Below, piece by piece: positions 4,554 through 61,759 of a stretch of DNA of 64,000 nt. Within the stretch, counting starts at the first letter, position 1. Each line of letters begins with the position of its first letter. This DNA is from Leptospirales bacterium (GTDB lineage Bacteria; Spirochaetota; Leptospiria; Leptospirales; Leptospiraceae). Position numbers and translations under genes: made by a program. The stretch lies in the NCBI GenBank assembly GCA_013297885.1, contig JAAFIR010000017.1, positions 1 to 64,000 on the forward strand. Direction: 5' to 3'. The notes under the pieces are model-generated. The model was given only the letters and a program-made list of their open reading frames with translations. It made no database searches and had not been told where the DNA came from.

Positions 4554-4990
4554 ATTGGAAGAAAACTTGCTTTGCAAAAAAAACTGTTAAAGATATTCAA
4601 AAATAGATTTTGGATGATATTGGAACAAAATTGCACTACATGAGAAGTCAAGCTTTCTATTTTACTTAATTTTCTGAGGGGAAATCTGTAAGAAAGAAAA
4701 AAAATAGATTTACCCTCTTAGGCTTATCCCACCTTAAATTATATTAAGATTAAAATCTTTAAAAAGTTTTTCAGAAATTCAAATTTTTGAACAGAGTTCA
4801 ATAAATTATATTTTTTTTTAAAACTTAATCTAGTTTAACGAAGCTAATTTTAATCTTATTTTTGATTTGACTATCAAATAGAATCTCCTTTAAAGTAAAT
4901 CTATATTTCAAATCAAATTAAAGTCAGATTAGTGATAAAAATACTTTATATTTGAAAACGACAATTTAAAATTTATACGAGGTTTATAAA
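4554..4990. other. AT-rich intergenic region
   Basis: No gene or repeat copy is recognisable. It is AT-rich with many short T and A runs. It must contain the promoter of the 4991 gene, whose ribosome binding site is probably ACGAGG at 4977-4982. Confidence 0.5.
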
Positions 4991-5974
4991 ATGAATAAAT
5001 TGATTTTAATATTTTTAATTCTATTTTCAGAATTTTGTACTTTTCCTAAAGAAAATACAAATGAAAAAAATTTTATTTCATTACTTCTTGTTAGGAGTTC
5101 AATACTTCCATCTAGTGGGAGTGGTAACAACTTTGATCAATTCACTCCAAACCAAGCAAATTGGAATACATTTCTTACAAAAATTACTGCAGCTGGTCTC
5201 AATGGACATGATCCAGATTCTATTACTTGGATTAGCAAATCCACTTGGGATAACGCAAGATGGGATGGTAAAACAATTTATGATCCAACTAAAATGACAA
5301 GAGCTGAATTTGAAACAGCAATTTGTCCAAATGCAGGTGATACTATTCGTGGAATTAGAGAAGTTTTTTATAGAACGAATCCATTTAGAGATAACAAAAA
5401 TCCAACAAAAGCTGAAGTTGATGAATGGCATAGAATTGCTCTCAATCATGTTCGAGCATTAGTTGGTTATACAACAGCCGATAGACTCGTTCAAAAAGAT
5501 CATTGTATGTTTAAAAGAGCTTTATGGGGAGATGAAAGACAGAACACTAGAATGTGGGATGCAAAATATCCAGGAACTGATGGCTCTGCTGCCGGTCCTT
5601 GTGTCGGTGGAACAAATGCACATTGTGGAGCAAGTTTTATTCCATCAGCAACAGATCAAGCTCCCTATTTTATTGGAACTCCTCAAACTTGTGTTGCAGG
5701 TCAAGGTTCGGAAGGAATAACTTCTGCACCCAAATCAAACATTCCATGGTCGATCAAATGGTCGCGAGGATTTTGTGGATTTCTTGGTGGTGAAGGTTTT
5801 TGGGGGGGACATGTTGGACCTTTTTTTCATAGAGAAAAATTTGGATTTAATTTTTGGGACGCTGAACAAAGTAATAATAATAGCAATGCAGTGTTAAGAG
5901 CAAAATGGACTGGTAAACGTATGCCGAGTCTTTATAATGATCCTGCTATAGTGACAGATTCAAACAGTGAATAA
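4991..5974 (+). CDS. Secreted protein of unknown family, tandem paralog 1 (putative lipoprotein)
   Basis: A 327-residue protein with a hydrophobic N-terminus and a possible lipobox (…ILFSEFC, Cys near residue 16). From residue about 48 it is closely similar along its length to the next gene: DQFTPNQANWNTF, DGKTIYDPTKM, NPTKAEVDEWHRIALNHVRALVGYTT, KRALWGDER, NIPWSIKWSRGFC, FWGGHVGPFFHREKFGFNFWD. Cysteines (ICP, DHC, GPC, AHC, QTC, GFC) recur in both copies, suggesting disulfides and export. Conserved Trp, His and Glu could form a catalytic or binding site, but I do not recognise the family. It differs from copy 2 by an extra low-complexity linker after the signal and by a longer C-terminus. 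Probably an exported protein; function unknown. Confidence 0.75.
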   Translation: MNKLILIFLILFSEFCTFPKENTNEKNFISLLLVRSSILPSSGSGNNFDQFTPNQANWNTFLTKITAAGLNGHDPDSITWISKSTWDNARWDGKTIYDPTKMTRAEFETAICPNAGDTIRGIREVFYRTNPFRDNKNPTKAEVDEWHRIALNHVRALVGYTTADRLVQKDHCMFKRALWGDERQNTRMWDAKYPGTDGSAAGPCVGGTNAHCGASFIPSATDQAPYFIGTPQTCVAGQGSEGITSAPKSNIPWSIKWSRGFCGFLGGEGFWGGHVGPFFHREKFGFNFWDAEQSNNNSNAVLRAKWTGKRMPSLYNDPAIVTDSNSE

Positions 5975-5998
5975 TATTCGGATAAGAGGAATTAAACG

Positions 5999-6871
5999 AT
6001 GAAAACAATTTTTATTTTTTTTAGCATGATGATTTTAACAACATTCATAAATGCTAATGATCAATTTACACCTAACCAAGCAGATTGGACAACATTCCAA
6101 TCAAAAGTAACTGCAGCAGGAATCACAGCACACGATCCTGATTCAGTGACATGGATTAAAAAATCAGATTGGGAAGCAGCTAAATGGGATGGCAAAACAA
6201 TTTACGATCCAACCAAAATGAGCAAAGCAGATTTTTTTAAAGCAATTTGTCCAAGTGCAGATAGAGTCCGCGGAATTAGAGAAGTGTTTTACAAAACAAA
6301 TCCGTTTAAGGACAACAAAAATCCAACTAAAGCAGAAATTGACGAATGGCATAGAGTTGCGATCAATCATGTTCGTGCGTTAGTTGGTTACACAACTTCA
6401 GACAGACAAATCATGAAAGACCAATGTATGTTCAAAAGAGCTTTATGGGGAGATGAAAGAAAATTTTCTACTATGTGGGATACAAAATATCCTGGCACAT
6501 CTGTATCTGCGGCAGGACCATGTGGTAAATTAAACACAGATGCACATTGTGGAGCAACCTTTCTTCCATCTGCAGCTGACCAGGCTCCTTATTTTACAAC
6601 AGCTCCCGAGACTTGCACAGCAACTGCTGGATCAGAAGGAGTTTTTTCTGGACCCAAATCAAACATTCCTTGGTCAATCAAATGGTCTCGAGGACTATGC
6701 AATACACTTGCTGCTGAAGGATTTTGGGGTGGACACACTGGACCTTGGTTTCACAGAGAAAAATTTGGTTTTAGTTTTTGGGATGCAGATCCAAAAAATA
6801 ATGGAAGTATAGCAGTCTTAAGAGCAAAATGGACTGGAAAATTAATGCCTAGTCTTTATAAACAACCTTAA
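5999..6871 (+). CDS. Secreted protein of unknown family, tandem paralog 2
   Basis: A 290-residue paralog of the preceding gene, 24 bases downstream, with AGAGGA before its ATG. A signal peptide (FFSMMILTTFINAN) without a lipobox leads directly into DQFTPNQADWTTF, so this copy is probably soluble and exported, while copy 1 may be lipid-anchored. The Cys pattern and the motifs EWHRVAINHVRALVG, FKRALWGDER, NIPWSIKWSRGLC and GPWFHREKFGFSFWD are kept. The two genes look co-transcribed. A repeat copy follows within 10 bases of the stop and may end the transcript. Confidence 0.8.
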   Translation: MKTIFIFFSMMILTTFINANDQFTPNQADWTTFQSKVTAAGITAHDPDSVTWIKKSDWEAAKWDGKTIYDPTKMSKADFFKAICPSADRVRGIREVFYKTNPFKDNKNPTKAEIDEWHRVAINHVRALVGYTTSDRQIMKDQCMFKRALWGDERKFSTMWDTKYPGTSVSAAGPCGKLNTDAHCGATFLPSAADQAPYFTTAPETCTATAGSEGVFSGPKSNIPWSIKWSRGLCNTLAAEGFWGGHTGPWFHREKFGFSFWDADPKNNGSIAVLRAKWTGKLMPSLYKQP

Positions 6872-16480: not shown

Positions 16481-18820
16481 ATGGATAACTCTGAGGAAAG
16501 TTTTGAATCAAGTCTCTCAAAAAAAAATCTTGATAGTGATTTATTAGATGAATTTGATGATGCAGATACAGGATCACTTTCTGAATTTCATGATATAATC
16601 GATTTTGAATATTACCCAGAAGACATAGATACTATATTAGATGATGATTTAGTTGCACCACAAAACGATAATGTTTTGAATTTTAATTTATCTAGTTTGG
16701 AAGAAGAAATTGAAGATGACTCTCTTTCTGAAAAACCTATCGAATTTAATCTATCATCTTTTGTCGATAGAACAGCAATGAATATTTTAGAAGATGAAGT
16801 AAATCAATCATCATCTTTATTGGAAGATTCTGAAGATGAAATAATTTCATTATCTCCAAATGAACTTGGTAACATTACGAATGAACTTGATTCAGATATT
16901 TTAGATGATGATGATACTAACCTTTTAGTTCCCGATGAACTTGAACAAAATGAACTTAACTTAGATGACGAACCAATCTCCCTAGATGCATCAGAATTAG
17001 ATCATATTTTAAATGCTGATGATTCTGATGAAGAAGAAACAGAAGATTCAATTTTTGGTGAACTTGAAGATAAGTCAAGTTTGGTCGGTGTAAACGAAAA
17101 TTATGATGACTTTGATGAAGGTGAGATTTCATTATCAACAAATGAATTAGATAATATTTTAGGTTCAGATTCAAATGAAGAATTTGAATCATCAATTGAT
17201 GAAGACGATTCAAACGAACATAAATCATTCTTTGATGATTTTGATGAAGAAGAAGAGACTGATCAACAAATTGAAGAAGATGAAACTATCGCTTTATCTC
17301 TTGATGAACTCGGAAATATTACTTCAACTCCCACTGAAGAAGCAGATTCTGCTTTGGAAGAAAGAGATGAGAATATCGCCCTTTCAGGTGATGAGTTAAA
17401 TAATTTATTAGATACCGGTGATTTGGAATCAGAAGAAGATTCTTCAGGTTCAACATTTGATTCTGATGAAGAAGATGACGAATCTATTGCATTATCTCCT
17501 GATGAATTAGGAAATATTACTTCTACAGAGACTGAAGAATTTGTTTCTGATCTTAATGAAAATGAAGAAGAAGATATTGCACTTTCAGGTGATGAGTTAA
17601 ACAATTTATTAGATACTGGTGATTTAATAGGTGAAGAAGATTCTAATCCTAGTAACTCAATTGAATCAATTGATGATGAAGATGAATCAATTGCATTATC
17701 TCTAGATGAGTTAGGAAATATTACAGCAACTGAAATTGAAGAAGTTGGTTCAGTTTTTGAAGACGCTAGTGATGAAGACATCGCTCTTTCAGGTGATGAG
17801 TTAAGCAATTTATTAGATACTGCTGATTTAATTGTAGAAGATGATAATTCTAGTTCGACTTCTGAATTGATAGAAGAAGATGAGTCCATTGCACTATCTC
17901 CAGACGAATTAGGGAATATTACTTCAACTGAGACGGAAGATATTCTTTCTCCAACTGATGAAAATAATGAAGATGAAATTGCTCTTTCTGGTGAAGAGTT
18001 AAGCAATCTTTTAGATACTAGTGATTTACAGATAGATGAAGAAAGTTCTGGTTTAAATGAAGACGAACCAATTTCGCTTTCTAGTGAAGAAGATTTAGAA
18101 CTAAAAGATTTTTCTGAAAATGAATCAGAGGTTGAAGATGATATTGCATTATCAGGTGATGAGTTAACAAATCTTTTAGAAACTGAAAATCAAACTGATA
18201 TTTCTCAAGAACAACCTACTTCGTTTTTTGAAACAATAGATGAAGAAGATGAATCAATAGCTTTAACAGATGATGAATTAGGAAATATTACTCCAGAACC
18301 TCTTTCAGATGGAGAAGAAGAAATTTCCCTTTCAGGTGAAGAATTAAATAATATCCTAGATGATAATCAATCTGATGATTCGATCAATGATTACTTATCA
18401 AATACATCAGAAGATGATTCAATTGATCAATTTAATTATGAACATGATGAAAGTTCTACAGAAAATAAAGTTGGTTTTGACTCAGAAGACACTGATTCAA
18501 ATATCTCACTATCTTCAAATGAGTTAAACAACATTTTAGAAGATGATCCTGAGCTTGGGATAAATGAAGATGATTTTATTATTAATGATGAAAATTCACA
18601 AATAACTGCTTTAGATTCTGTAGAAGATAATCAAACTTTAGTAGGTTCTGAAAATTTTACACAAACCAGTCTTAAGAATGTAAATAGAGAAGAATTAAAA
18701 AAATTGATGTCACATATGGATGAACTTCTTGGTAGCCTCCCTGATTCTTATATTAAAGAGTTTGCCACTTCAGAATACTTTGAACTCTATAAAAAGATAA
18801 TGGAAGAATTGGAACTTTAA
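16481..18820 (+). CDS. Acidic repeat protein with about 16 'IALSxDELxNI/L' motifs
   Basis: A 779-residue, very acidic protein with no signal peptide or membrane segment. From residue about 120 to 685 it carries about 16 copies of a short motif in two flavours: A, S-IALSPDELGNIT, and B, D-IALSGDELNNLL followed by DT-DL. Between 17287 and 18010 they alternate A-B-A-B with a DNA period close to 200 bases. Linkers are Asp/Glu/Ser-rich and probably disordered. The last 45 residues form a separate helical, less acidic domain (REELKKLMSHMDELLGSLPDSYIKEFA… LYKKIMEELEL). The motifs may be docking sites for a repeated partner. The next gene starts 3 bases after the stop, also has an acidic N-terminus, and is probably a functional partner. 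Family not recognised. Confidence 0.8.
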   Translation: MDNSEESFESSLSKKNLDSDLLDEFDDADTGSLSEFHDIIDFEYYPEDIDTILDDDLVAPQNDNVLNFNLSSLEEEIEDDSLSEKPIEFNLSSFVDRTAMNILEDEVNQSSSLLEDSEDEIISLSPNELGNITNELDSDILDDDDTNLLVPDELEQNELNLDDEPISLDASELDHILNADDSDEEETEDSIFGELEDKSSLVGVNENYDDFDEGEISLSTNELDNILGSDSNEEFESSIDEDDSNEHKSFFDDFDEEEETDQQIEEDETIALSLDELGNITSTPTEEADSALEERDENIALSGDELNNLLDTGDLESEEDSSGSTFDSDEEDDESIALSPDELGNITSTETEEFVSDLNENEEEDIALSGDELNNLLDTGDLIGEEDSNPSNSIESIDDEDESIALSLDELGNITATEIEEVGSVFEDASDEDIALSGDELSNLLDTADLIVEDDNSSSTSELIEEDESIALSPDELGNITSTETEDILSPTDENNEDEIALSGEELSNLLDTSDLQIDEESSGLNEDEPISLSSEEDLELKDFSENESEVEDDIALSGDELTNLLETENQTDISQEQPTSFFETIDEEDESIALTDDELGNITPEPLSDGEEEISLSGEELNNILDDNQSDDSINDYLSNTSEDDSIDQFNYEHDESSTENKVGFDSEDTDSNISLSSNELNNILEDDPELGINEDDFIINDENSQITALDSVEDNQTLVGSENFTQTSLKNVNREELKKLMSHMDELLGSLPDSYIKEFATSEYFELYKKIMEELEL

Positions 18821-18822
18821 AA

Positions 18823-20754
18823 ATGAGTCTAATTGAAAGGGCGTTTCGCTTATTAAAAGAAATTCCAAATCTTGTAATTGGTGAAAATAAAAACGAACCT
18901 CATAAGAACAAACGAAGTTTTTTAAAAGAAGCAGAAAATTTTCACCAAACAGCAATTTATCCTATTGTAGAAGAAAATATTCCTGATGAAGAATCTATTA
19001 AAGCATCAAAGGAATTAACTGAAACTGAAATTGAAGCAGTTGTAGACAAAGAAGAATTTCTTTTAATAAATGAGTCTGATGAAATTTATATTGAAAATGA
19101 AGATAATATTGATGATGAAGCTGAAGATGATTATCTAATTGATTTAGATAAAATCGAGGATGATGTTAATCAAACAAAAACTAAAATTGAACTTGTTGAT
19201 GATATAATAGATGATAATGAAATTTTAGAAGACTGGGAAAATGATGCACTGAGAGATGAAGAAGTGGGTTATATTCCTAAAGAAGAAATTCACATTTTAA
19301 ATGATAGTTCTGAATCAAAAGACAACTCGGATAATTATTTTGTATTAGTTGAAACTACAAAAGAGATTCTAAAATCAAATTCTTATGATGATTTTTTTGC
19401 AAATTTAATGTATTCTATAATAGGACAAGTTGGTATTGAAAGAATTTTGATTTATTCATCTCGAAATGGGAATTTTAATGAATTAGAGTTAATAGCTAAA
19501 GAAGGTAGTGAAGAAGAAATAGATAAAATATTTTCTTCTAGTGATAAAATTTATCAATCACTTGAAAATTCTGAAAAAATATTAAAAATTTCAGAGATAG
19601 AAAATTTGAATCAAGATGAACTGGAACTAGTAGAAAAATTTCATATCGAGATTTTAATCCCAATAAAAGTAGATGATAAATTTTCAGGTTTTATTTTAGC
19701 TAGTAAAAAACATGCACAAGATGAGTTTTTAGATTCTGAAATAGATTTTATCAAAAATTTAGTTGATATATCTAGTAATTATTTATCAAAACTTTTAGAT
19801 TTTGAAAATCTAAATCGTGAAGTTAGTGAATTGAATAAAGTTTTGTTATCAAATAATCGAGTTACTGCATTTGCTGATAAAATTTATTCGAGCTTAAATC
19901 TTGAAGAAGTTTTTGATTTAACTTCAGAATTTTTTATTAATGATTTTAAAATTCAAAAATTTTCTTTATTAATTCTTGAAAGTTTTAGTGATAAGTTTAA
20001 AATTTTTGAAACTAACACTTTTAGCCAATTAGTAAAAGAAAAATTTTCATTAAATAAAGATTCTAAAATTATCACTATGGTTTCTCAAATATCAGCAATA
20101 TACAAATTAGATAACCCTGAGGAGAATAATGAATTGGCAATATTGAATTCCCAATTAATAGATTATGAATTTATTATGATTCCTTTATTAAACAGAAAAA
20201 GACTTTATGGAATTTTTGTTGTTCATGATGTTGGTTTAAATTTAACTCCAGGTTTTAAACAAGCTTTAGTTTCTATCTCAAATATAATAGCTCCAATAAT
20301 TTCAAATATTCTGATAGAAAAAGAAAAAAATACTTTATATAAAGATCCTTTTAATCCACTACATTCCATTCTTGAAAAAGAAATTGCAGAGGCAAAAGAA
20401 ACTGATTCCAGTTTTACTTTAATTGTTGTTAAAATTTTAAATATAAGTAGAATTTTTACAATATTAGGTATGAATTTTTATACAGAATACATTGAATTCA
20501 TTTCGAAGACAATTCAATCTAATGTCGATGAAAAAGATTATATTTCTAGAATTGGACAAGGAAAATTTGCAATTTTGCTAAAAGGTTTTGATAGCATAGA
20601 TGCTGAAGGTTTTATTGAAAAAATCAAATCCAAAATAGTAATGTTTCACAATCCTTCCAAAGAATTTAAACTTTCAATTCAAGTATACTCTTTAGAATTT
20701 CCAAAACAAGCATCCGATAAAAGAAAATTTATAGAAATGCTCGAAGAAACCTAA
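18823..20754 (+). CDS. GAF-domain protein with acidic N-terminus and degenerate GGDEF-like domain
   Basis: A 643-residue cytoplasmic protein. Residues 1-165 are acidic. Residues about 170-330 look like a GAF domain (NSYDDFFANLMYSIIGQVGIERILIY…), with a second GAF-like domain at about 345-500 (SLNLEEVFDLTSEFFINDFKIQKFSLLIL). The C-terminus from about 505 resembles a diguanylate cyclase fold (SFTLIVVKILNISRIFTILG … ISRIGQGKFAILLKG), but GQGKF replaces GGDEF, so it is unlikely to make c-di-GMP. A sensory or scaffold role is inferred. It follows the acidic repeat gene within 3 bases and is followed by an MBOAT gene after 8 bases. Confidence 0.7.
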   Translation: MSLIERAFRLLKEIPNLVIGENKNEPHKNKRSFLKEAENFHQTAIYPIVEENIPDEESIKASKELTETEIEAVVDKEEFLLINESDEIYIENEDNIDDEAEDDYLIDLDKIEDDVNQTKTKIELVDDIIDDNEILEDWENDALRDEEVGYIPKEEIHILNDSSESKDNSDNYFVLVETTKEILKSNSYDDFFANLMYSIIGQVGIERILIYSSRNGNFNELELIAKEGSEEEIDKIFSSSDKIYQSLENSEKILKISEIENLNQDELELVEKFHIEILIPIKVDDKFSGFILASKKHAQDEFLDSEIDFIKNLVDISSNYLSKLLDFENLNREVSELNKVLLSNNRVTAFADKIYSSLNLEEVFDLTSEFFINDFKIQKFSLLILESFSDKFKIFETNTFSQLVKEKFSLNKDSKIITMVSQISAIYKLDNPEENNELAILNSQLIDYEFIMIPLLNRKRLYGIFVVHDVGLNLTPGFKQALVSISNIIAPIISNILIEKEKNTLYKDPFNPLHSILEKEIAEAKETDSSFTLIVVKILNISRIFTILGMNFYTEYIEFISKTIQSNVDEKDYISRIGQGKFAILLKGFDSIDAEGFIEKIKSKIVMFHNPSKEFKLSIQVYSLEFPKQASDKRKFIEMLEET

Positions 20755-20762
20755 TTGAATAA

Positions 20763-22172
20763 ATGTTATTTAATTCAATTAATTTCTTAGTTTTTTTCTT
20801 TTGTTTTTTTTTAATTTACTTTAAATCTAATTTAAAATTTCAAAATATTTTACTTTTACTAGGTGGAATTTTCTTTTACGCTTTCTGGAATATCTGGGCA
20901 AGTCTAATTTTAATTTTATCTATTTTAATAAATTATTTTATGGGAAATTTATTATTCTCAAAAAAAAACTATAAAAAGAGAATTTTATTTTTTGGGATTA
21001 TAGGCAATTTGAGTTTATTGTTTTTTTTTAAATATGCGATTTTTGTAAGTAATATCCTCAATGATTTTTTTTTGATAACTAATATTAATTTTAAGTTTAA
21101 AATTTTAAATATAATTTTACCAATTGGAATTTCATTTTATACATTTCATAATATTTCGTATTTAGTTGATTTGTATAAAGAAAAAATTTTACCTTCAAAA
21201 AACTTAATAAGTTTTTCAGTTTATGATTTATTTTTTCCACTACTTTTGGCTGGTCCAATAGAAAGAGCAGAAAAACTTATTCCACAAATCGAAGCAAAAC
21301 GAAAAATTAATAAAGATAAGGTTGTCTCTGGAACTATTTTATTTTGTATTGGAATTTTAAAAAAAGTTTTTATTTCTGATAATTTGTCTGAACTTGTTGA
21401 TCTTTCTTTAAAAACTAATTCTATGATTCCTGAAGGTTTTACTTATACAATCGCATTTTTATTTGCATTTCAAGTTTATACAGATTTTAGTGGTTATACT
21501 GATTCAGCACGTGGGCTTGCTAGAATTTTAGGATTCGAATTGTCGCTTAATTTTAATTTACCGTTTGTTTCTAAAAATCCTTCTGAGTTTTGGACAAGAT
21601 GGCACATTAGTCTCAGTACTTGGCTTAGAGATTATGTTTATATCCCTCTTGGTGGAAATAAATATGGGTTTATTAAACAAAATACAAATTTACTAATTGT
21701 CTGGATTTTAGGTGGACTTTGGCATGGAGCAACTTATGGGTATTTGATTTGGGGTGGATATTGTGGGATTCAAGTTGTGGGATATAATTTGATTCAAAAG
21801 TTAAATTTGAAAATAACTATTTCTAATTTTTTTGATAAATATTTTTTAAATAACATTTATCGGATACTAACATTTTTTTTATTTGGTTTTGGTTTATTAT
21901 TGTTTAGAGTTGAAAATTATACTCATTTAGAAAGACTAGTTATAAATTCCAAAACAATTTTTTTTAATTTAAATTTGAATATAAAAATTTTATTTTTTAT
22001 ATCTCCTGTTTTAATTTTAGAAAGTATTTCAATTTATAAAAATGATTTGGAAGCTTTTCATCCAAGGAAAATAAATTCATTTTTATTTTATACAATTACT
22101 TTTGTTTTCAGTTTGCAATTTATCTTGTTTTCTTCTTTCCAGTTAAAAGAATTTTTTTATTTTCAGTTTTAA
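20763..22172 (+). CDS. MBOAT-family O-acyltransferase (AlgI-like)
   Basis: A 469-residue membrane protein with about ten helices. It has PIGISFYTFHNISYLVDLY, LAGPIERAEKLIPQ, a DFSGYTDSARGLARILGFEL segment, and the catalytic-His region NLLIVWILGGLWHGATYGYLIWGGYCG. Such enzymes transfer acetyl or acyl groups to polysaccharide or lipid on the outer face, usually with an SGNH/AlgJ-like partner. No such partner is visible here. The 3' end is followed by a hairpin at 22225-22258. Confidence 0.9.
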   Translation: MLFNSINFLVFFFCFFLIYFKSNLKFQNILLLLGGIFFYAFWNIWASLILILSILINYFMGNLLFSKKNYKKRILFFGIIGNLSLLFFFKYAIFVSNILNDFFLITNINFKFKILNIILPIGISFYTFHNISYLVDLYKEKILPSKNLISFSVYDLFFPLLLAGPIERAEKLIPQIEAKRKINKDKVVSGTILFCIGILKKVFISDNLSELVDLSLKTNSMIPEGFTYTIAFLFAFQVYTDFSGYTDSARGLARILGFELSLNFNLPFVSKNPSEFWTRWHISLSTWLRDYVYIPLGGNKYGFIKQNTNLLIVWILGGLWHGATYGYLIWGGYCGIQVVGYNLIQKLNLKITISNFFDKYFLNNIYRILTFFLFGFGLLLFRVENYTHLERLVINSKTIFFNLNLNIKILFFISPVLILESISIYKNDLEAFHPRKINSFLFYTITFVFSLQFILFSSFQLKEFFYFQF

Positions 22173-51953: not shown

Positions 51954-54437
51954 ATGACTTTTCTTAAAGAAAGATTAATCTTGACTAGTAAAATTCACAT
52001 GATAGCAAGAATTCGAGTTTTTATATTTCTATTTATTTTTATTTTTCTATTTTCATGTGAAAACAAAAAAAATAATTTCCCAATTTTTAAAGGTGAAATT
52101 GATTTATCTCAATGGAATCCTGAAATTGATGGAATAATTGATTTAACAGGAGATTGGGAATTTTATCCAAATCAAAAATTAACTTATAATGATTTTCAAA
52201 CTAAAAGTTTAAAACCAGAATATTTAACCGTACCATCAACTTGGAGAGGAAAAGATTTTGGTACTTTAAAAATTGAAGATATTAATTTTGCAACTTATCG
52301 ATTAAAAATATTTTTAAAAGATGAATCCAAGATTTTTTCTTTTAAGATGTTAAATCATTCAACTATTTATAAAGTATTTTTAGATGAAAAACTAATTGCA
52401 GAAAATGATTTTAGAGTTAAAGAACAAGAATTATCTCCGTTCCACATACCTATTCATGATTTAAAATTAAAAACTGTTCGTAGAGAGTTAAATCTAATTG
52501 TCCAAATTGTTAAAAATAATCAATTTTATAATGGAATAAATGAAAAAGTGTATGCTGGAAGTTTTCGTGATATAAAATATTTTAAAACATTTAAACAAGG
52601 CATAGAATTAATAATTTCAGGAATTGTTTTTATGATGTTTGTTCATCATATTTTAGTCTTTTTCTTGAGAAAACAAGAAAAGGAATTTTTAGCATTTGCA
52701 ATTTTCTCTTTTTTGGTTTCTATTTGGTTACTTTTAGCTGGAGAAAAATTTTTCTACCAACTCTTCAATTATGAGTATTATGATTATTTATTTTTTTTAG
52801 AAAAATTATTACTGGGCTTTCTGCCTATTTCTGGGATTATATTTACTTACCAAATATATAAAGAATTTTTTAATAAATATATTTTCTATGGATCTATAGT
52901 ATTTTTTTTATTTTATATGTTTATAAATATTTTCTTTTATAAATATTTTTATAAAATTTATTATTATTTTTTAATAATTTTGGTAATTGATTTATTTTAT
53001 AGCGTAATTATAACTATACAATCAATTTTAAAAAAACAAATTAAAGGAAAAATTAGTTTTTTTGGTTTTTTAATTCTAGCCATTACAGTTTTAAATGATG
53101 CTTTAAGTTCAATGAATTTAATTCAATCAATTAGACTAACACAATATGGTTTTTTAGGATTTATGTTTTCTAAAAGTTTTATTTTGTCAGAGAGATATTC
53201 AAATACATTTGATGAACTAGAAGAATTAACTTCTCTTTTGGAAGAAAAAGTCAATGAAAGAACTAAAGAATTAGTAATCGCGAAAGAAAAAGCTGAAAAA
53301 GCAAATCAAGCAAAATCTATTTTTGTAGCAACAACTAGTCACGAAATTAGAACTCCAATGAACGGAATAATTGGAATGTCAAATTTACTTTTAACAACAG
53401 AACAAAACGATGAACAAAAAAAATATGTAGAAATGATTCAAAGCTCAGCTAATTCACTTTTAACTATTTTAAATGATGTATTGGATTATTCAAAAATTGA
53501 AGCTGATAAAGTTACAATTGAGTCAATTCAATTTAATATTGTAAAACTTGTAAATGAAGTTTATTTATTTTTGTACAATAAAGCTAAAGAAAAGAATGTT
53601 TTACTAGATTTTGAATTTGATGCTGAGATAATACCTTATGTTTTTTCAGACCCAACTAAACTTAGACAAATTTTGTATAATATTCTAGGTAATTCAATTA
53701 AGTTTACTGAAAAAGGTGTAATTAAGATTTTTTTAAACAAAATTAGTATTGAAGGAGATTATCAAAAAATTGAAATAAGAGTTCATGATACTGGAATTGG
53801 AATTCCCAAAGATAAAGTAGAAGAAATTTTTGAGCCATTCACTCAAGCTGATTCAGGTATAAGTAGAAAATTTGGTGGAACTGGGCTTGGTTTAGCAATA
53901 ACAAAAAAATTAGTAAATTTACTTGGTGGAAATATTGAAATACATTCTGAGATTGGAGAAGGGACTAGTTTTAGTATCTATTTTAATTTAGAGTATTCTT
54001 TGAAAATTAATCCTGAAAGTAATATAGATAAGAAGTTAGATTCAAAATTTTATTCAATTTATCCATTAAAAATTTTATTAGTAGATGATAATTTAATTAA
54101 TCGAGAAGTAGCAAAAGGGATTTTTACAAAACTTGGATACGAAATTGTTTTAGCTGAAGATGGACTTCAAGCAATTGAAAAATTGAAAAAATTTCATTTT
54201 GATTTAGTATTTATGGATTTACATATGCCAGTTATGAATGGTTATGAAGCAACTAAAGAAATCATTTCTATGCTTGGAGTGAATCGTCCAAAAATCATTG
54301 CTTTTACTGCTGATTTAATTGACACAAGAAAAGATATAGTTTTTAAAACTGGTTTTGATGATTTAATGTTTAAACCTTTAAAAATTGATGAATTAGAATT
54401 TAAACTAGTTACTATCTATAAACAAAAGAAGGTTTAG
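51954..54437 (+). CDS. 7TMR-DISM hybrid histidine kinase with receiver domain
   Basis: An 827-residue sensor kinase. A lipobox-like FLFSCENKK near residue 35 is followed by an extracytoplasmic galactose-binding-like domain (about 45-210: [23 protein letters not shown]), seven membrane helices (about 215-410), a short coiled coil, HisKA ([21 protein letters not shown]), HATPase ([31 protein letters not shown]) and a receiver ([15 protein letters not shown], phospho-Asp in [11 protein letters not shown]). A start at the later ATG near 52000 would give a more usual signal peptide. Paralog of the preceding pseudogene. Confidence 0.9.
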
Positions 54438-56197: not shown

Positions 56198-59100
56198 TCA
56201 ATCTTTATAAATTTCAAAAATTGGATTTGGGGATTCACCAAAAATGTCTGGTGAATACATCGCTTCAATTCTTGTTTGAGGTAAAATAAATTTTCCGTCT
56301 TGGTTTAGTCTCACCGTGTATTCAATGATGGTTTCACCTTGTGGTAGAAATTCATAATACGCTCTGTAATTTTCGTAGGAGCGTTCTTCAAAACTTGGAT
56401 AACTGCCTGATGCTTGTTCTGAATTTTGAGCCATTGAAGAATCTTTTCGCACACCACCAAGAATTGCTGCCCCAGTTGGAATTGGATCGTTTAACACTAC
56501 CCAAGTCATGTCCACATCTGCTTTGATTTTAATTTTAACTCGAAGTAAGTCACCACGTTTGTATCCACCACTGAACAATGAAAATACTCCAGAGCTATTC
56601 ATTTTAGAAATTGATTTTTCAATTGTATAACCACTTGAAATCGCTGTCTTTAAAGGTGAGGCAACTTTACTTTGAAGATTCACCCAAGGTTTGCCAGAAC
56701 CTTCATGAGTGATTTTTAAATCAGAAGATTCTGTTGGAAATGGAATTTTTTGGTTTAATGATTTTGTGCTTTCAGTCCATTTTGATTTTTGTGTGTTTGA
56801 TTGATTGGTTGCAGTTGTTTCACCAGTGACAGAATCTTTTTCAAATTCACGAGCAAATTTTTCTAGTGCTAAACTTCCCCAAGCATTTGCAGTTGTTAAA
56901 TCCCAAGTACCTCTTTGTTGACGACCGAGTGTGCCTCGTAAAATTCTTGGAGAATCATCACGCCATTTTTTAAAATTCACAGCGGTTAATAGAAGTTTGG
57001 TGGCGTTCATATCCGAAGAAACCATCAACCACCAAAGTTGATCTGAATTTTCATTTACAAATTTCATACTAGTTCCTTGCAAATTAATTCTTGCACGAAT
57101 CACTTGTTCTAATTCTGAAAGTTGATTTATTCTATTTGGAGCATTTTGTGTTCTTAATAATACAGACCAATAATCTAAAAGTGCTGAACTTGGTAATAAA
57201 TTAAAATCCAGATTTAGTGTGCTTAATGATGTAGTATTTAATTTTCCATAACGAGCAAGTGATTCCATTGAATTAATTTTGCGAATAGTTAAGTCAGCAG
57301 TTTGAAGTGAACTTTCTCGAAAAATTTTTCCTTCCACAAAATTATTTAATGCAGATAACATTTGTTCACGAGAAGAATCTGGAATTTTATAACCAGCTTC
57401 ATGAATAATGGAAAGAACATAAGCTGTTAAACTTGGACTTCCGTAATAAGCATTTGGAAAATATTTTACAAATCCAGATTCATCTAAATATGAGGGAGTG
57501 TTTTTCATCAATTCGTCAAAAGATTTTTTATCTTTTAGCACAATGATTTTTGAAAGTTGTTGTTCATAACAAGTATATGGATATTTTTTCATATACTCTT
57601 TGATGCTATTCATATTATCCAAAAGTGATTTGGAATAATTAATTTCAATTCCTCCTTTTTCAGAATCAGCATCTTCAGGTTTTTCAATTTTTAAAGAATA
57701 TTCTTTGTCCAATTGAAACAATGTTCCTTGAATCACTCTTTCTTTGAGAGATGGAACAATTTTTTGAGAGATTTTAATTTTATCAAATGCACCTGAATTT
57801 GATTTTGCAGAAAATTCATATTCTAATTTTTCAACACCTTTTGGAATTTTAATATCCCAAAAAATTTCTGTGCTTTGGTCTTTTTCAAGACTAATTGATT
57901 TGTTTGTTAGTTCACCGATTCCAGACACAGAACCTTTTACTTCAATATCCATTTTTTGTGTGCTAGAATTTCTAATTGTCACAGAAGGTTTTAATTCGTC
58001 ACCTTCTCGAGCTAGAACCGGAAGACCAGGTAAGATGGATAAATCTTGGGTGCTTCTAAAACTAGTTTCACCAGTTCCAAAAAATTTTTCACCACCATTT
58101 GCAATTGCTACAACTCTAAAACTAGTTAATGAATCGTTTAATGGAAAACTAATTTCTGCATTTCCATTTTGGTCTAATTTTACAATTGCTTTCCAATATA
58201 GAAGTGTGTCAAATTTTTGACGGGCAGATTCCATTCCGCCACCACCACCAGGAGGAAGTGCTTTGATACCAAAATGTCTTCTTCCCACAACTTGCATTTG
58301 TGCTGTGGAAGTTTGAACTTCATGTCCTCTTTCATTCATCATGACTTTTAATAAATTCCAAGTTTCATTTGGCATGAGCTCTAGTAATGCTTCGTCAACA
58401 ACAGCAAGAGCAATTTCAGAGTTTGCTGGAAGTTTTGCACCAATTGCAGTTTTAACTGAAACTGTCGCAGTAACTTTTTCTCTAATTTTAAAAACTGGTC
58501 TATCCGTTTTGACAGAAACTTTTAGTTCATGTGGTTTCCAACCAACTTTAATAGAGTTCATTCCGAGTTTAAAACTTGGTCTGCCAAGATCAACTAGTGC
58601 TGTTGGTTTGATTTCAGAAACTCTTCCGCGAAGTGCTAAAGCAGATACATAAACATTTGGGGCATAATTCTGTTTAATGGGAATTTCAATTACAGGATTT
58701 GCAGAAGTAATTTGTTTTACATAATGATCTAAAATTCCTTCTCTTTCAACTGTAAACAAAACTGTTGAATTTTTAAATGGAGCTCTCACCTGAAATTTTG
58801 CAGTATCACCAACTTCATAATTTTTTGTATCTGGAATGAGATCAATTCTATCATGATCTGCAAAATCAAACCAAGAATCTTTTCCTGATACATTAAATTC
58901 TCTTTGTGCATAAGTAGAATTTTCACCTTCAGAAATTTCAGCTTGTAAAATAACAGAGCCTTCAACTGGGGAAGGTTTTTTACAAACAAATAAACCTTTA
59001 CTGTCTGTTTTGCCGCTACAAAAGTTTGCAATTTTTTTTATTTCACTAGAATAACTAAAAGAATAAAATCCACCTACTAATCTTTTTCTGTTTGAATATT

Positions 59101-61759
59101 GAAATCTTTTGTACATTACAATTTCTACGTTTACACCCGATTTTGGTTTTCCATCTAAATCTACAACAGCAGCAGTAGCTGAAACTTCAGACTTTGGCAT
59201 GTACCAAGAATCATTTTTTAAACCTACTAAGTAACGTGATGGATAAATTTTAAATGAATTAAATGCAGTTTGCATTTCACCACTTGGGTCTCTGTATTCA
59301 AGTTCCGTTTGAACTGTTTGAATTGATTCAGATTTATTTTTTAATTTTGCAATTGCTTTAGCAGAACCAAACTGATCTAATACTAATTCTTCAGAATTGA
59401 TTTGATTTGCACTGGACTCAGTATCCAAATCTAATTCAGTAGAATTATTGGATTGACCTTCTTTAATTTTATTGGAAGCAAAATTAAAATCTTCAAATCC
59501 TTCAAAACTTTGGTAAGCAGCACTTGATTCTGTTGTTCTTAAAGTGATAGGTAAACCAGAAGCAGGACCTCCTGAAAAATAATTTACAATTAAATCAATT
59601 GGAATTTGTTTTTGGTTTATTACTTTTTCATAAGGACCTTTGATTGCAGCTTTTAAAATTGGAGTTTTAAATTCTTCTACACTAAAACTAGCTGTATAAA
59701 ACACATCGTCTTTGTTTGCAATTTCTATTGAGTATTGACCAAGTTTTGCTTCTTTTGGAATTTTAAATTTGGATTCAGCAGTTCCATTATTCCAAGCTAA
59801 TGCAAATGGATATTCCATTCCCGAACCAGAATGAATGATTCTTCCAGAAACTGGAATATCTGAGCCAGCAAAATTTAATCCAGCAGTGGAATGTTTTCTG
59901 ATTAAATGTTTCATGCTAACTGTTTCACCAGTTTGAAAAAGGGTTCTGTCTAAAATTGTGTGCAGAATTAAATTACTAGGTCTAGAATATCCACCACCTA
60001 AATTAAATCTCCAATCTTCAATTCCATTTATCCAAGAAGAATGAACAAAAGAAATATCATTCCCTTTTTCAGCAGTTACTAAATATCCATTGGAATAAGA
60101 AGAAGTGTATGCACAATTTGAGTTTGGTAATTTTCCTTTAAAAGCAAATATACCAATTCCATCAGTAACACCTTCTTTTAAAACTTTATTATTACAATCT
60201 CTAACTGAAATTTTTGCATCAGCAACTGGACTTGCGTTATTTAAAGAAGTAACAAAAACGAGTGAGCTTTCTTTTCCTTCTTTAAAATGTACAGACATAT
60301 TTGTGACAAGTGCTGAGGTCCCCACAAACATTTTGTTTTGTTCTTTTAAAAGTGATTTACCAAGTTTATCACTTTCAATTTCCACTATGTAAAATCCGGG
60401 ATCTTTGAGTGGGATGCCTACCACTTCAAAAGCTTTTTCCCCATTTGGTTTTGGAATTTCAAAATTAGATCCAAAACTTTCACCTTCAAAAAGGGATTTT
60501 TCTCTTTTTTTCTTAGAAACTTTGTTTAACCAATTTAAAATTTTATCTGAAGAAATTTTAACTTTTTTCCCCATCATTTTATCTAAAAAACCTTCTTCTT
60601 TAACCATTCCCAAAATTTTGGCTTTGATTTTTTTGTCTAAATTTCTTAAAGTAACTGGTAAAAGTGGTTCTGCTTCAAATTCAATAATTCCAAAATCCCC
60701 AGAAAATTTTGCAAGTGGTGGAAACTCTGCAGTGCTAAAACTGAGAGGAAATTTATTTTGGTTAGAAAGCTTTCTCGCTGATTCATCTTTAATGGATTCA
60801 ATATTTAAAGTGAATTTTGAATTTTCTGGAAAAGGTCCTTCAAAATAAACTCTATCCAAAGTTTTTTCATTTTCTTCCTCATCATTTCCATAAAATTTTG
60901 CAGACCATTTTTTAGTTCCATCAGTTAAAGAAATTTTTTTAATTTCAGATTTATTAAACGCTGCTGTAAAGTTTACATAAAAATTTCCAACAGGAATACA
61001 ATTTGATTTTGCATTTTCTCTATCACAAGAAAAATTTGCAGCAAAATTTTCTCTCACTTTAAAATTAAAATTTTGTTTTTTGGAAGAAGCAACTCCTGAT
61101 TTAGAAGTAATTCCTTTTTCCCAAATTAAAGTAATTTTGGAATTTGTAGAAAATTTTCTACTTGATTGAAGCATGATTGTTTTTGGGGGAAGTTTTTCTT
61201 GGCTAAATTGTGATTTAACAACCTCGATAAATGAATTTTGATTTAAAATTTTAACTTTGATTTTATCTTTAATTCCTTCCAATTCAAAATACAAATTGGA
61301 ATTTAAACTTTCTTCACTAACTTCTGTGTCAGAAGTCAAAAAGAAAATTTGTTCTTCATCAATAAAACTTCCTTCATAAGGATTGATTGTCAAAACTGCT
61401 GGACCACCAGTTGTAAATTTAAAACTTTTTTTCCCGGTTAAATTTTCCCCAGCTAAAGTTTTAACAGAAGATTTTAATTGAAAAGAACAATTGATTCCAG
61501 CTTCTAGTGAATTTGGAAATTCATAAACAAAAGTTTTTTCATCTATCCATCTAGCTTTTCCTGTTACAGGACAATTGATTTCAAAAATATCAGTTTTGGC
61601 TCTTGGATCACCAAATGGAACCATTTGTTTTTGAAACCCAACTTTGACTTGGGTTACTGATTTTACTTCACCTTCAGGTGAAAAATAAGCTACAGAATTT
61701 TTCTCTTGAGAGAAAATCCCAAATGAAATTAGAAAAGCTAGAACGAATCGTTTAATCAT
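56198..61759 (-). CDS. Bacterial alpha-2-macroglobulin-like protein with thioester motif
   Basis: A 1853-residue exported protein, in the range for bacterial A2M. The signal peptide (FVLAFLISFGIFSQ) has no lipobox Cys, so it is likely periplasmic and soluble. MG-type beta-sandwich domains fill the N-terminal two thirds; FQTGETVSMKHLIRKHS and TLYWKAIV-like segments match MG3-MG10 in order. The thioester motif is intact (YPYTCYEQQLSK, CxEQ), followed by an alpha-helical TED-like region and a C-terminal domain (FLPQGETIIEYTVRLNQDGKFILP). It is likely a broad protease trap. No PBP1C gene is adjacent, unlike typical A2M loci. Confidence 0.9.
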   Translation of the reverse strand: MIKRFVLAFLISFGIFSQEKNSVAYFSPEGEVKSVTQVKVGFQKQMVPFGDPRAKTDIFEINCPVTGKARWIDEKTFVYEFPNSLEAGINCSFQLKSSVKTLAGENLTGKKSFKFTTGGPAVLTINPYEGSFIDEEQIFFLTSDTEVSEESLNSNLYFELEGIKDKIKVKILNQNSFIEVVKSQFSQEKLPPKTIMLQSSRKFSTNSKITLIWEKGITSKSGVASSKKQNFNFKVRENFAANFSCDRENAKSNCIPVGNFYVNFTAAFNKSEIKKISLTDGTKKWSAKFYGNDEEENEKTLDRVYFEGPFPENSKFTLNIESIKDESARKLSNQNKFPLSFSTAEFPPLAKFSGDFGIIEFEAEPLLPVTLRNLDKKIKAKILGMVKEEGFLDKMMGKKVKISSDKILNWLNKVSKKKREKSLFEGESFGSNFEIPKPNGEKAFEVVGIPLKDPGFYIVEIESDKLGKSLLKEQNKMFVGTSALVTNMSVHFKEGKESSLVFVTSLNNASPVADAKISVRDCNNKVLKEGVTDGIGIFAFKGKLPNSNCAYTSSYSNGYLVTAEKGNDISFVHSSWINGIEDWRFNLGGGYSRPSNLILHTILDRTLFQTGETVSMKHLIRKHSTAGLNFAGSDIPVSGRIIHSGSGMEYPFALAWNNGTAESKFKIPKEAKLGQYSIEIANKDDVFYTASFSVEEFKTPILKAAIKGPYEKVINQKQIPIDLIVNYFSGGPASGLPITLRTTESSAAYQSFEGFEDFNFASNKIKEGQSNNSTELDLDTESSANQINSEELVLDQFGSAKAIAKLKNKSESIQTVQTELEYRDPSGEMQTAFNSFKIYPSRYLVGLKNDSWYMPKSEVSATAAVVDLDGKPKSGVNVEIVMYKRFQYSNRKRLVGGFYSFSYSSEIKKIANFCSGKTDSKGLFVCKKPSPVEGSVILQAEISEGENSTYAQREFNVSGKDSWFDFADHDRIDLIPDTKNYEVGDTAKFQVRAPFKNSTVLFTVEREGILDHYVKQITSANPVIEIPIKQNYAPNVYVSALALRGRVSEIKPTALVDLGRPSFKLGMNSIKVGWKPHELKVSVKTDRPVFKIREKVTATVSVKTAIGAKLPANSEIALAVVDEALLELMPNETWNLLKVMMNERGHEVQTSTAQMQVVGRRHFGIKALPPGGGGGMESARQKFDTLLYWKAIVKLDQNGNAEISFPLNDSLTSFRVVAIANGGEKFFGTGETSFRSTQDLSILPGLPVLAREGDELKPSVTIRNSSTQKMDIEVKGSVSGIGELTNKSISLEKDQSTEIFWDIKIPKGVEKLEYEFSAKSNSGAFDKIKISQKIVPSLKERVIQGTLFQLDKEYSLKIEKPEDADSEKGGIEINYSKSLLDNMNSIKEYMKKYPYTCYEQQLSKIIVLKDKKSFDELMKNTPSYLDESGFVKYFPNAYYGSPSLTAYVLSIIHEAGYKIPDSSREQMLSALNNFVEGKIFRESSLQTADLTIRKINSMESLARYGKLNTTSLSTLNLDFNLLPSSALLDYWSVLLRTQNAPNRINQLSELEQVIRARINLQGTSMKFVNENSDQLWWLMVSSDMNATKLLLTAVNFKKWRDDSPRILRGTLGRQQRGTWDLTTANAWGSLALEKFAREFEKDSVTGETTATNQSNTQKSKWTESTKSLNQKIPFPTESSDLKITHEGSGKPWVNLQSKVASPLKTAISSGYTIEKSISKMNSSGVFSLFSGGYKRGDLLRVKIKIKADVDMTWVVLNDPIPTGAAILGGVRKDSSMAQNSEQASGSYPSFEERSYENYRAYYEFLPQGETIIEYTVRLNQDGKFILPQTRIEAMYSPDIFGESPNPIFEIYKD

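Follow-up and report, generated by a model that had tools for sequence, protein, structure and literature searches.

A single-copy spirochaete protein family with FliM-like motifs as a candidate flagellar accessory scaffold

The closest described counterpart of the motif reported here lies at the N-terminus of the C-ring proteins FliM and FliY, whose EIDALL motif is bound by CheY-P (PMC9126983). The FliM N-terminus is also contacted by FlhG (PMC12826062), and Asp12 of FliM makes a key salt bridge to Lys119 of CheY (PMC7012829). Other known systems resemble the locus in part, including multivalent linear-motif scaffolds, the Maf/PseD flagellin glycosyltransferase clusters (PF01973, NF050051), and the GAF-GGDEF diguanylate cyclases. 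How the periplasmic flagella of spirochaetes are placed, assembled, and coordinated between the two cell ends is not settled. The protein described below is a directly testable missing part of this problem; it is single-copy, occurs in most flagellated spirochaetes, and has genes for FliM, FliS, or flagellin glycosyltransferases as neighbours.

The window, a stretch of 64,000 nucleotides from a Leptospirales genome, contains an open reading frame (16481-18820, +) that encodes an acidic disordered scaffold protein of 779 aa, with 18.1% Glu and 15.5% Asp (34% combined); we use T as the name for this protein and its orthologs. A single match shows that T is present in one copy in its own genome. 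Searches of Pfam and NCBIfam returned no domain for T, including no FliM or FliN core domain, and the family is described by no Pfam or NCBIfam model, no solved structure, and no paper found in a literature search that covered few subscription papers. The repeats also produce an antisense ORF of 247 aa (17263-18006, -), which is not a gene. The motif matches at one other place in this genome, on contig C1; we read that site as a chance antisense match because no ORF of at least 90 aa carries it.

T contains 14 strict copies of the pattern [IV][AS]L[ST]x[DENS]EL and one divergent copy, 15 in all, compared to a mean of 0.003 and a maximum of 1 in 20,000 shuffles of its composition; the array claimed by the earlier note is real, but its count of about 16 was slightly too high. 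The consensus in T is [IV][AS]L[ST]xxELxN[IL], or LSxDELxN[IL][LT] when written as a docking motif. All copies are on the plus strand: ISLSPNELGNIT (16844-16879, of the GNIT flavour), the divergent ISLDASELDHIL (16976-17011), ISLSTNELDNIL (17126-17161), IALSLDELGNIT (17288-17323 and, as the eighth copy, 17690-17725), IALSGDELNNLL (the fifth and seventh, 17375-17410 and 17576-17611), IALSPDELGNIT (the sixth and tenth, 17486-17521 and 17888-17923), IALSGDELSNLL (the ninth, 17780-17815), IALSGEELSNLL (the eleventh, 17978-18013), IALSGDELTNLL (18143-18178), IALTDDELGNIT (18257-18292), ISLSGEELNNIL (18323-18358), and ISLSSNELNNIL (the fifteenth, 18503-18538). The GNIT flavour accounts for six copies, and the others read N/S/T-N-[IL]L or similar. 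GNIT and NNLL pairs form a tandem array (17272-18028, +) to which TRF assigns periods of 198 nt (3.8 copies) and 402 nt (1.9 copies). Here, too, the earlier description holds in part: the two flavours and the period of about 200 bases stand, but strict alternation is confined to four pairs (residues 270-511), in which successive motifs are spaced 29/37/30/38/30/36/30 aa; outside this region both order and spacing are irregular. In family f2 the arrays consist of ordered, distinguishable motifs, and in several members an [IV]-[AT]-L-T-[AP]-E-E-L-G-N-I-V copy is followed by a [VI]ALSxSELDxIL copy; the alternating pair in the window may therefore descend from these two f2-type motifs.

We counted synonymous and nonsynonymous codon differences among copies of the same flavour, in the motif and in its flanks. 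For flavour A of the window the ratio is 29:12 in the motif and 5:73 and 12:75 in the flanks; for flavour B it is 64:26 compared to 18:75 and 15:138. The contrast is stronger in a 12-copy ortholog (L074), with 372:43 in the motif and 134:333 and 57:668 in the flanks. By this comparison the motif is under strong purifying selection and the linkers are not; after duplication the motif was retained and the linkers drifted. Across 158 copies the core Glu and Leu are nearly invariant, so the degenerate DEL core in relatives that would have spoken against docking sites was not seen. In an AlphaFold2 model extended to include the last motif, a short helix is predicted at that motif, with confidence above that of the low-pLDDT linker. 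The codon contrast and the low-pLDDT linkers together provide the conserved motif and divergent disordered linkers of a multivalent linear-motif scaffold. The earlier suggestion that fixed motifs in an acidic, disordered chain act as docking sites is supported by conservation of the motif across the phylum, purifying selection, and a predicted short helix amid low-confidence stretches. Like known scaffolds of this type, T combines a repeated short conserved motif with acidic disordered linkers and a separate folded end domain, and its copy number varies between species; unlike them, T was seen only in spirochaetes, in a profile search within Spirochaetota.

The motif is built like the EIDALL peptide. 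Both comprise ten residues, LS-x-[DE]-E-hydrophobic-[DN]-x-[IL]-L, that form a short helix with an S-x-x-E start. A motif HMM gave little usable signal among neighbouring ORFs and did not retrieve FliM; for this reason, we used an ungapped position-specific matrix (PSSM) of the T motif. Among 210,406 windows of 610 other proteins, all six FliM N-terminal 10-mers rank 4-8 and 10; first place goes to a T ortholog of a Brachyspira-like genome. This ranking is a strong hint from sequence and not a blind test, because FliM was singled out after the motif had been seen. A degenerate DNA pattern run against T's own genome matches T, FliM (MTEILSQDEIDALL), a FliY-type protein, and one further site; FliM there starts with MTEILSQDEIDALLNAIS and the FliY-type protein with MGDGSLSQDEIDKLL. 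The pattern LSxxEhxxLL also matches a XerC-like recombinase and the tail of CheW, and is a common helix start as well.

The resemblance has clear limits. EIDALL is N-terminal, single, and part of a C-ring protein, whereas the T motif is internal and repeated. Compared to the FliM/FliY consensus LSQxEID(A/Q)LL, T almost always has Leu in place of the Ile that follows Glu, and the position of the FliM Asp is commonly Asn or Gly in this genome. At the Asp12-equivalent position nearly all window copies carry N, G, S, or T, and most copies in families f3-f5 and in Spirochaetia carry D. Given the Leu for Ile and the prevalence of N, G, or S at the Asp12 position, the window copies may bind a different or changed ligand. 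Because Borreliaceae have FliM but lack T, and two key FliM residues differ here, direct binding of CheY by the T motif is only putative.

T belongs to a phylum-wide family. A profile built from 59 C-terminal alignment columns, run within Spirochaetota only, finds it in 276 of 393 genomes, and the phylum-wide profile A3 finds the C-terminal domain in 288 of the 393, nearly always in a single copy; Leptospira itself is not among the named matches. The array that the earlier note described is confirmed, but the family is far larger than it said, and it did not mention the likeness to FliM/FliY or the flagellar genes nearby. There is one motif in Spirochaetia and there are 2-15 in Leptospirae, with 2-11 in relatives from the same family (L025-L029, Leptospiraceae) and the maximum of 15 in this genome. 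The single Spirochaetia motif is a near-invariant IALTGDELDNIL, set in GFFxDExDExIALTGDELDNILNTAxFTEE. T is also found in a Treponema pallidum-like genome (G061); judging by gene order, this looks like T. pallidum or a close relative, in which the T gene would be TP0181. A search for papers on TP0181 or the motif strings returned none naming the protein.

The distribution of T follows that of flagella in part, with exceptions in both directions. In counts made by hand from lists of profile matches, T is present in about 272 of 299 FliM-positive genomes outside Borreliaceae. In family f49, T is found in 0 of 81 genomes and FliM likewise in 0 of 81. In the 36 Borreliaceae genomes FliM is present and T is in none; with this exception, the T family occurs in most flagellated spirochaetes. 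There are 17 T-positive genomes with no FliM match (A1 tally); since 13 of them still encode FlhA, one interrupted by stops, most of these absences are assembly gaps. In G364, the FlhA frame (C16:152368-153495) is broken by 8 TGA and 2 TAG codons and a full T gene is kept.

Two bases past the end of T begins a partner gene (18823-20754, +), whose product carries N-terminal SLIERA/SFLKEA motifs, a GAF-like domain with a weak Pfam match (2.2e-4), and a degenerate GGDEF domain; the adjacent GAF gene to which the earlier note had pointed is therefore there. In 48 of 64 T loci, T is followed directly, in the same orientation and usually within a few bases, by a gene that begins with M[GS]L. The partner has the domain order of GAF-GGDEF diguanylate cyclases but differs from them in its N-terminal basic GLLxRA-type motifs and in a GGDEF signature that reads RIGQGKFA, which makes it unlikely to be a working cyclase; five f1 orthologs aligned to it (alignment A2) have GQGKF, GEGKF, or GRGKF at this site. 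In Leptospirae the M[GS]L neighbour is a GAF or degenerate-GGDEF protein. The Spirochaetia partner genes searched against Pfam gave no match, so the GAF label there denotes position and N-terminal similarity. In many genomes across the phylum the partner N-terminus bears a basic motif, [GS]L[LFR]x[KR]A, in one to six copies, making it a second undescribed motif-bearing protein. In L060 the partner (4599-6836, -) has a T-like SITLTAEEL at residue 150, the best motif-HMM match outside T and Brachyspira. A search of viral contigs for the partner found no match. The third gene of the cluster encodes an MBOAT O-acyltransferase (20763-22172, +; Pfam 2e-22), and this gene (cluster 16) is likewise third in four other genomes of the same family (L025, L026, L028, and L029). 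Elsewhere, the window encodes a 7TMR-DISM hybrid histidine kinase with a receiver domain (51954-54437, +) and a bacterial alpha-2-macroglobulin of 1853 aa (56198-61759, -).

In several clades T is associated with flagellar genes, including FliM, FliS, FapA, and Maf/PseD. The gene order in families f3-f5 is T-GAF-secreted protein-FliM, and FliM lies downstream of T in six loci (L061, L063, L067, L071, L073, and L074; 7.5e-82 in L071). A protein with an apparent signal peptide (cluster 10) precedes FliM in Leptospirae and is also near T in Treponema-like loci; it was found in L061, L063, L067, L070, L071, L073, L074, and L108, with no Pfam match above the cut-off. FliS is directly upstream of T in L068 (2.6e-38), L132 (9.1e-40), and, by clustering, L102, and FapA follows the partner gene in L068 (1.6e-41). 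Most Spirochaetia loci have MptE/Maf-like genes, mostly as tandem pairs (PF01973 1.8e-34; NCBIfam PseD 1.6e-11), in the order T-GAF-type-Maf-Maf-GGDEF-like, and a DivIC-like gene lies divergently upstream of T in many loci of Spirochaetia. In Leptospirae the atp operon is upstream; in L025-L029, T follows atpC, in some cases with a small SLBB gene in between, and precedes the GAF/GGDEF gene. The small SLBB protein has a PF10531 match in L029 (4.2e-8) and was clustered in L025, L026, and L028; a similar gene precedes T in a Brachyspira-like genome (L105).

These neighbours suggest that T helps to build or steer the internal flagella. Our preferred reading, which we hold tentatively, is that T is a spirochaete-specific flagellar accessory scaffold with FliM-like docking motifs for CheY-P or FlhG. 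The long acidic disordered part would display a short helical docking motif, once in Spirochaetia and up to 15 times in this genome, to a ligand that most likely also recognizes EIDALL, namely CheY-P or FlhG, the ATPase for flagellar placement; we infer these ligands because the motif is built like the N-terminal peptide of FliM and FliY. The array could hold several ligand molecules near the flagellar base, raising their local concentration, with the C-terminal three-helix domain anchoring the scaffold and the GAF/degenerate-GGDEF neighbour feeding in a signal. If the motifs do bind CheY-P or FlhG, T would offer a new means of tuning a flagellar switch. A bolder version, which we regard as doubtful, makes T a diffusible, multivalent form of the FliM tip, whose tandem EIDALL-like motifs would collect CheY-P or FlhG and buffer or coordinate the motors at both cell ends.

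The putative anchor, a C-terminal domain of about residues 736-779 (18686-18817, +), is the family signature (profile A3). AlphaFold2 predicts helices at about residues 736-752, 755-762, and 765-776 (pLDDT ~90), a separate three-helix unit, which upholds the claim that this region is a distinct domain. A sequence-profile search of the PDB gave nothing significant (best E 0.28), Foldseek against the PDB nothing below E 4.6, and the matches in Pfam were weak and scattered, with none that held up from member to member; a search of plasmids for the domain found no match. Hints of FliG (N-domain, E 1.2 in a PDB sequence search) and MgtE_N were not significant and were dropped. Intramolecular docking of the last motif on this domain was likewise not supported, as the longer model shows no confident packing (pTM 0.33).

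The main rival to the docking of CheY-P or FlhG places T in flagellin maturation and not at the switch. Here T and its GAF partner would organize FliS, Maf-type glycosylation, and export, and the motif would bind one such enzyme or the export gate. This reading, which we think unlikely, explains better than ours the FliS genes adjoining T in three loci, the Maf-like genes that follow the partner in most loci of Spirochaetia, and the lack of T in Borreliaceae, where FliM is retained, as fits a non-switch role; moreover, the FlaB glycan of Treponema denticola is essential for filament assembly (PMC9481697). It does not account for the FliM gene in the T cluster of families f3-f5 or for a motif that matches FliM and not a known FliS or Maf ligand. 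Neither T nor its partner is itself a glycosyltransferase. In the loci of Leptospirae, which show the greatest expansion of the motif, no Maf or FliS gene was seen adjoining T, and both proteins occur without Maf neighbours.

It is less probable still that the ligand of the motif array is the GAF/GGDEF partner, the two proteins forming a signalling condensate and the flagellar neighbours reflecting only its output. T and its partner are adjacent in most loci, and the numbers of repeated motifs in the two proteins are correlated (Spearman 0.63), but this correlation is confounded by phylogeny and, given the shared ancestry, we do not count it as evidence; the L074 partner, moreover, has one GLRERA motif against 12 motifs in T. 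Least probable is convergence, in which the motif is an unspecific S-x-x-E capped helix of a charged protein that acts outside the flagellum, for example in the cell envelope or division, the FliM likeness is chance, and the neighbours are hitchhikers: the XerC-like and CheW matches, the DivIC-like gene and atp operon upstream, and the persistence of T in two apparently non-flagellate genomes would fit, but the variety of flagellar neighbourhoods, the absence of T from 81 of 81 FliM-less genomes of one family, and the decay of the array in those same two genomes argue against it.

These two near-complete genomes (G362 and G371) have neither FliM nor FlhA. In both, T is shortened to about 210 residues, the motif array is degenerate, and the GAF and Maf neighbours are gone; the C-terminal domain and a coiled-coil segment are retained. 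One of the shortened genes (L170 5274-5894, -) keeps GAFVSPEELEGLL and GDFLSPEDID, and the other (L169 5007-5645, -) keeps only GFFLSPADEERSF. The loss of array and partner along with the flagellum suggests that the three belong together, and the retention of the C-terminal domain suggests that this part of T has some additional role.
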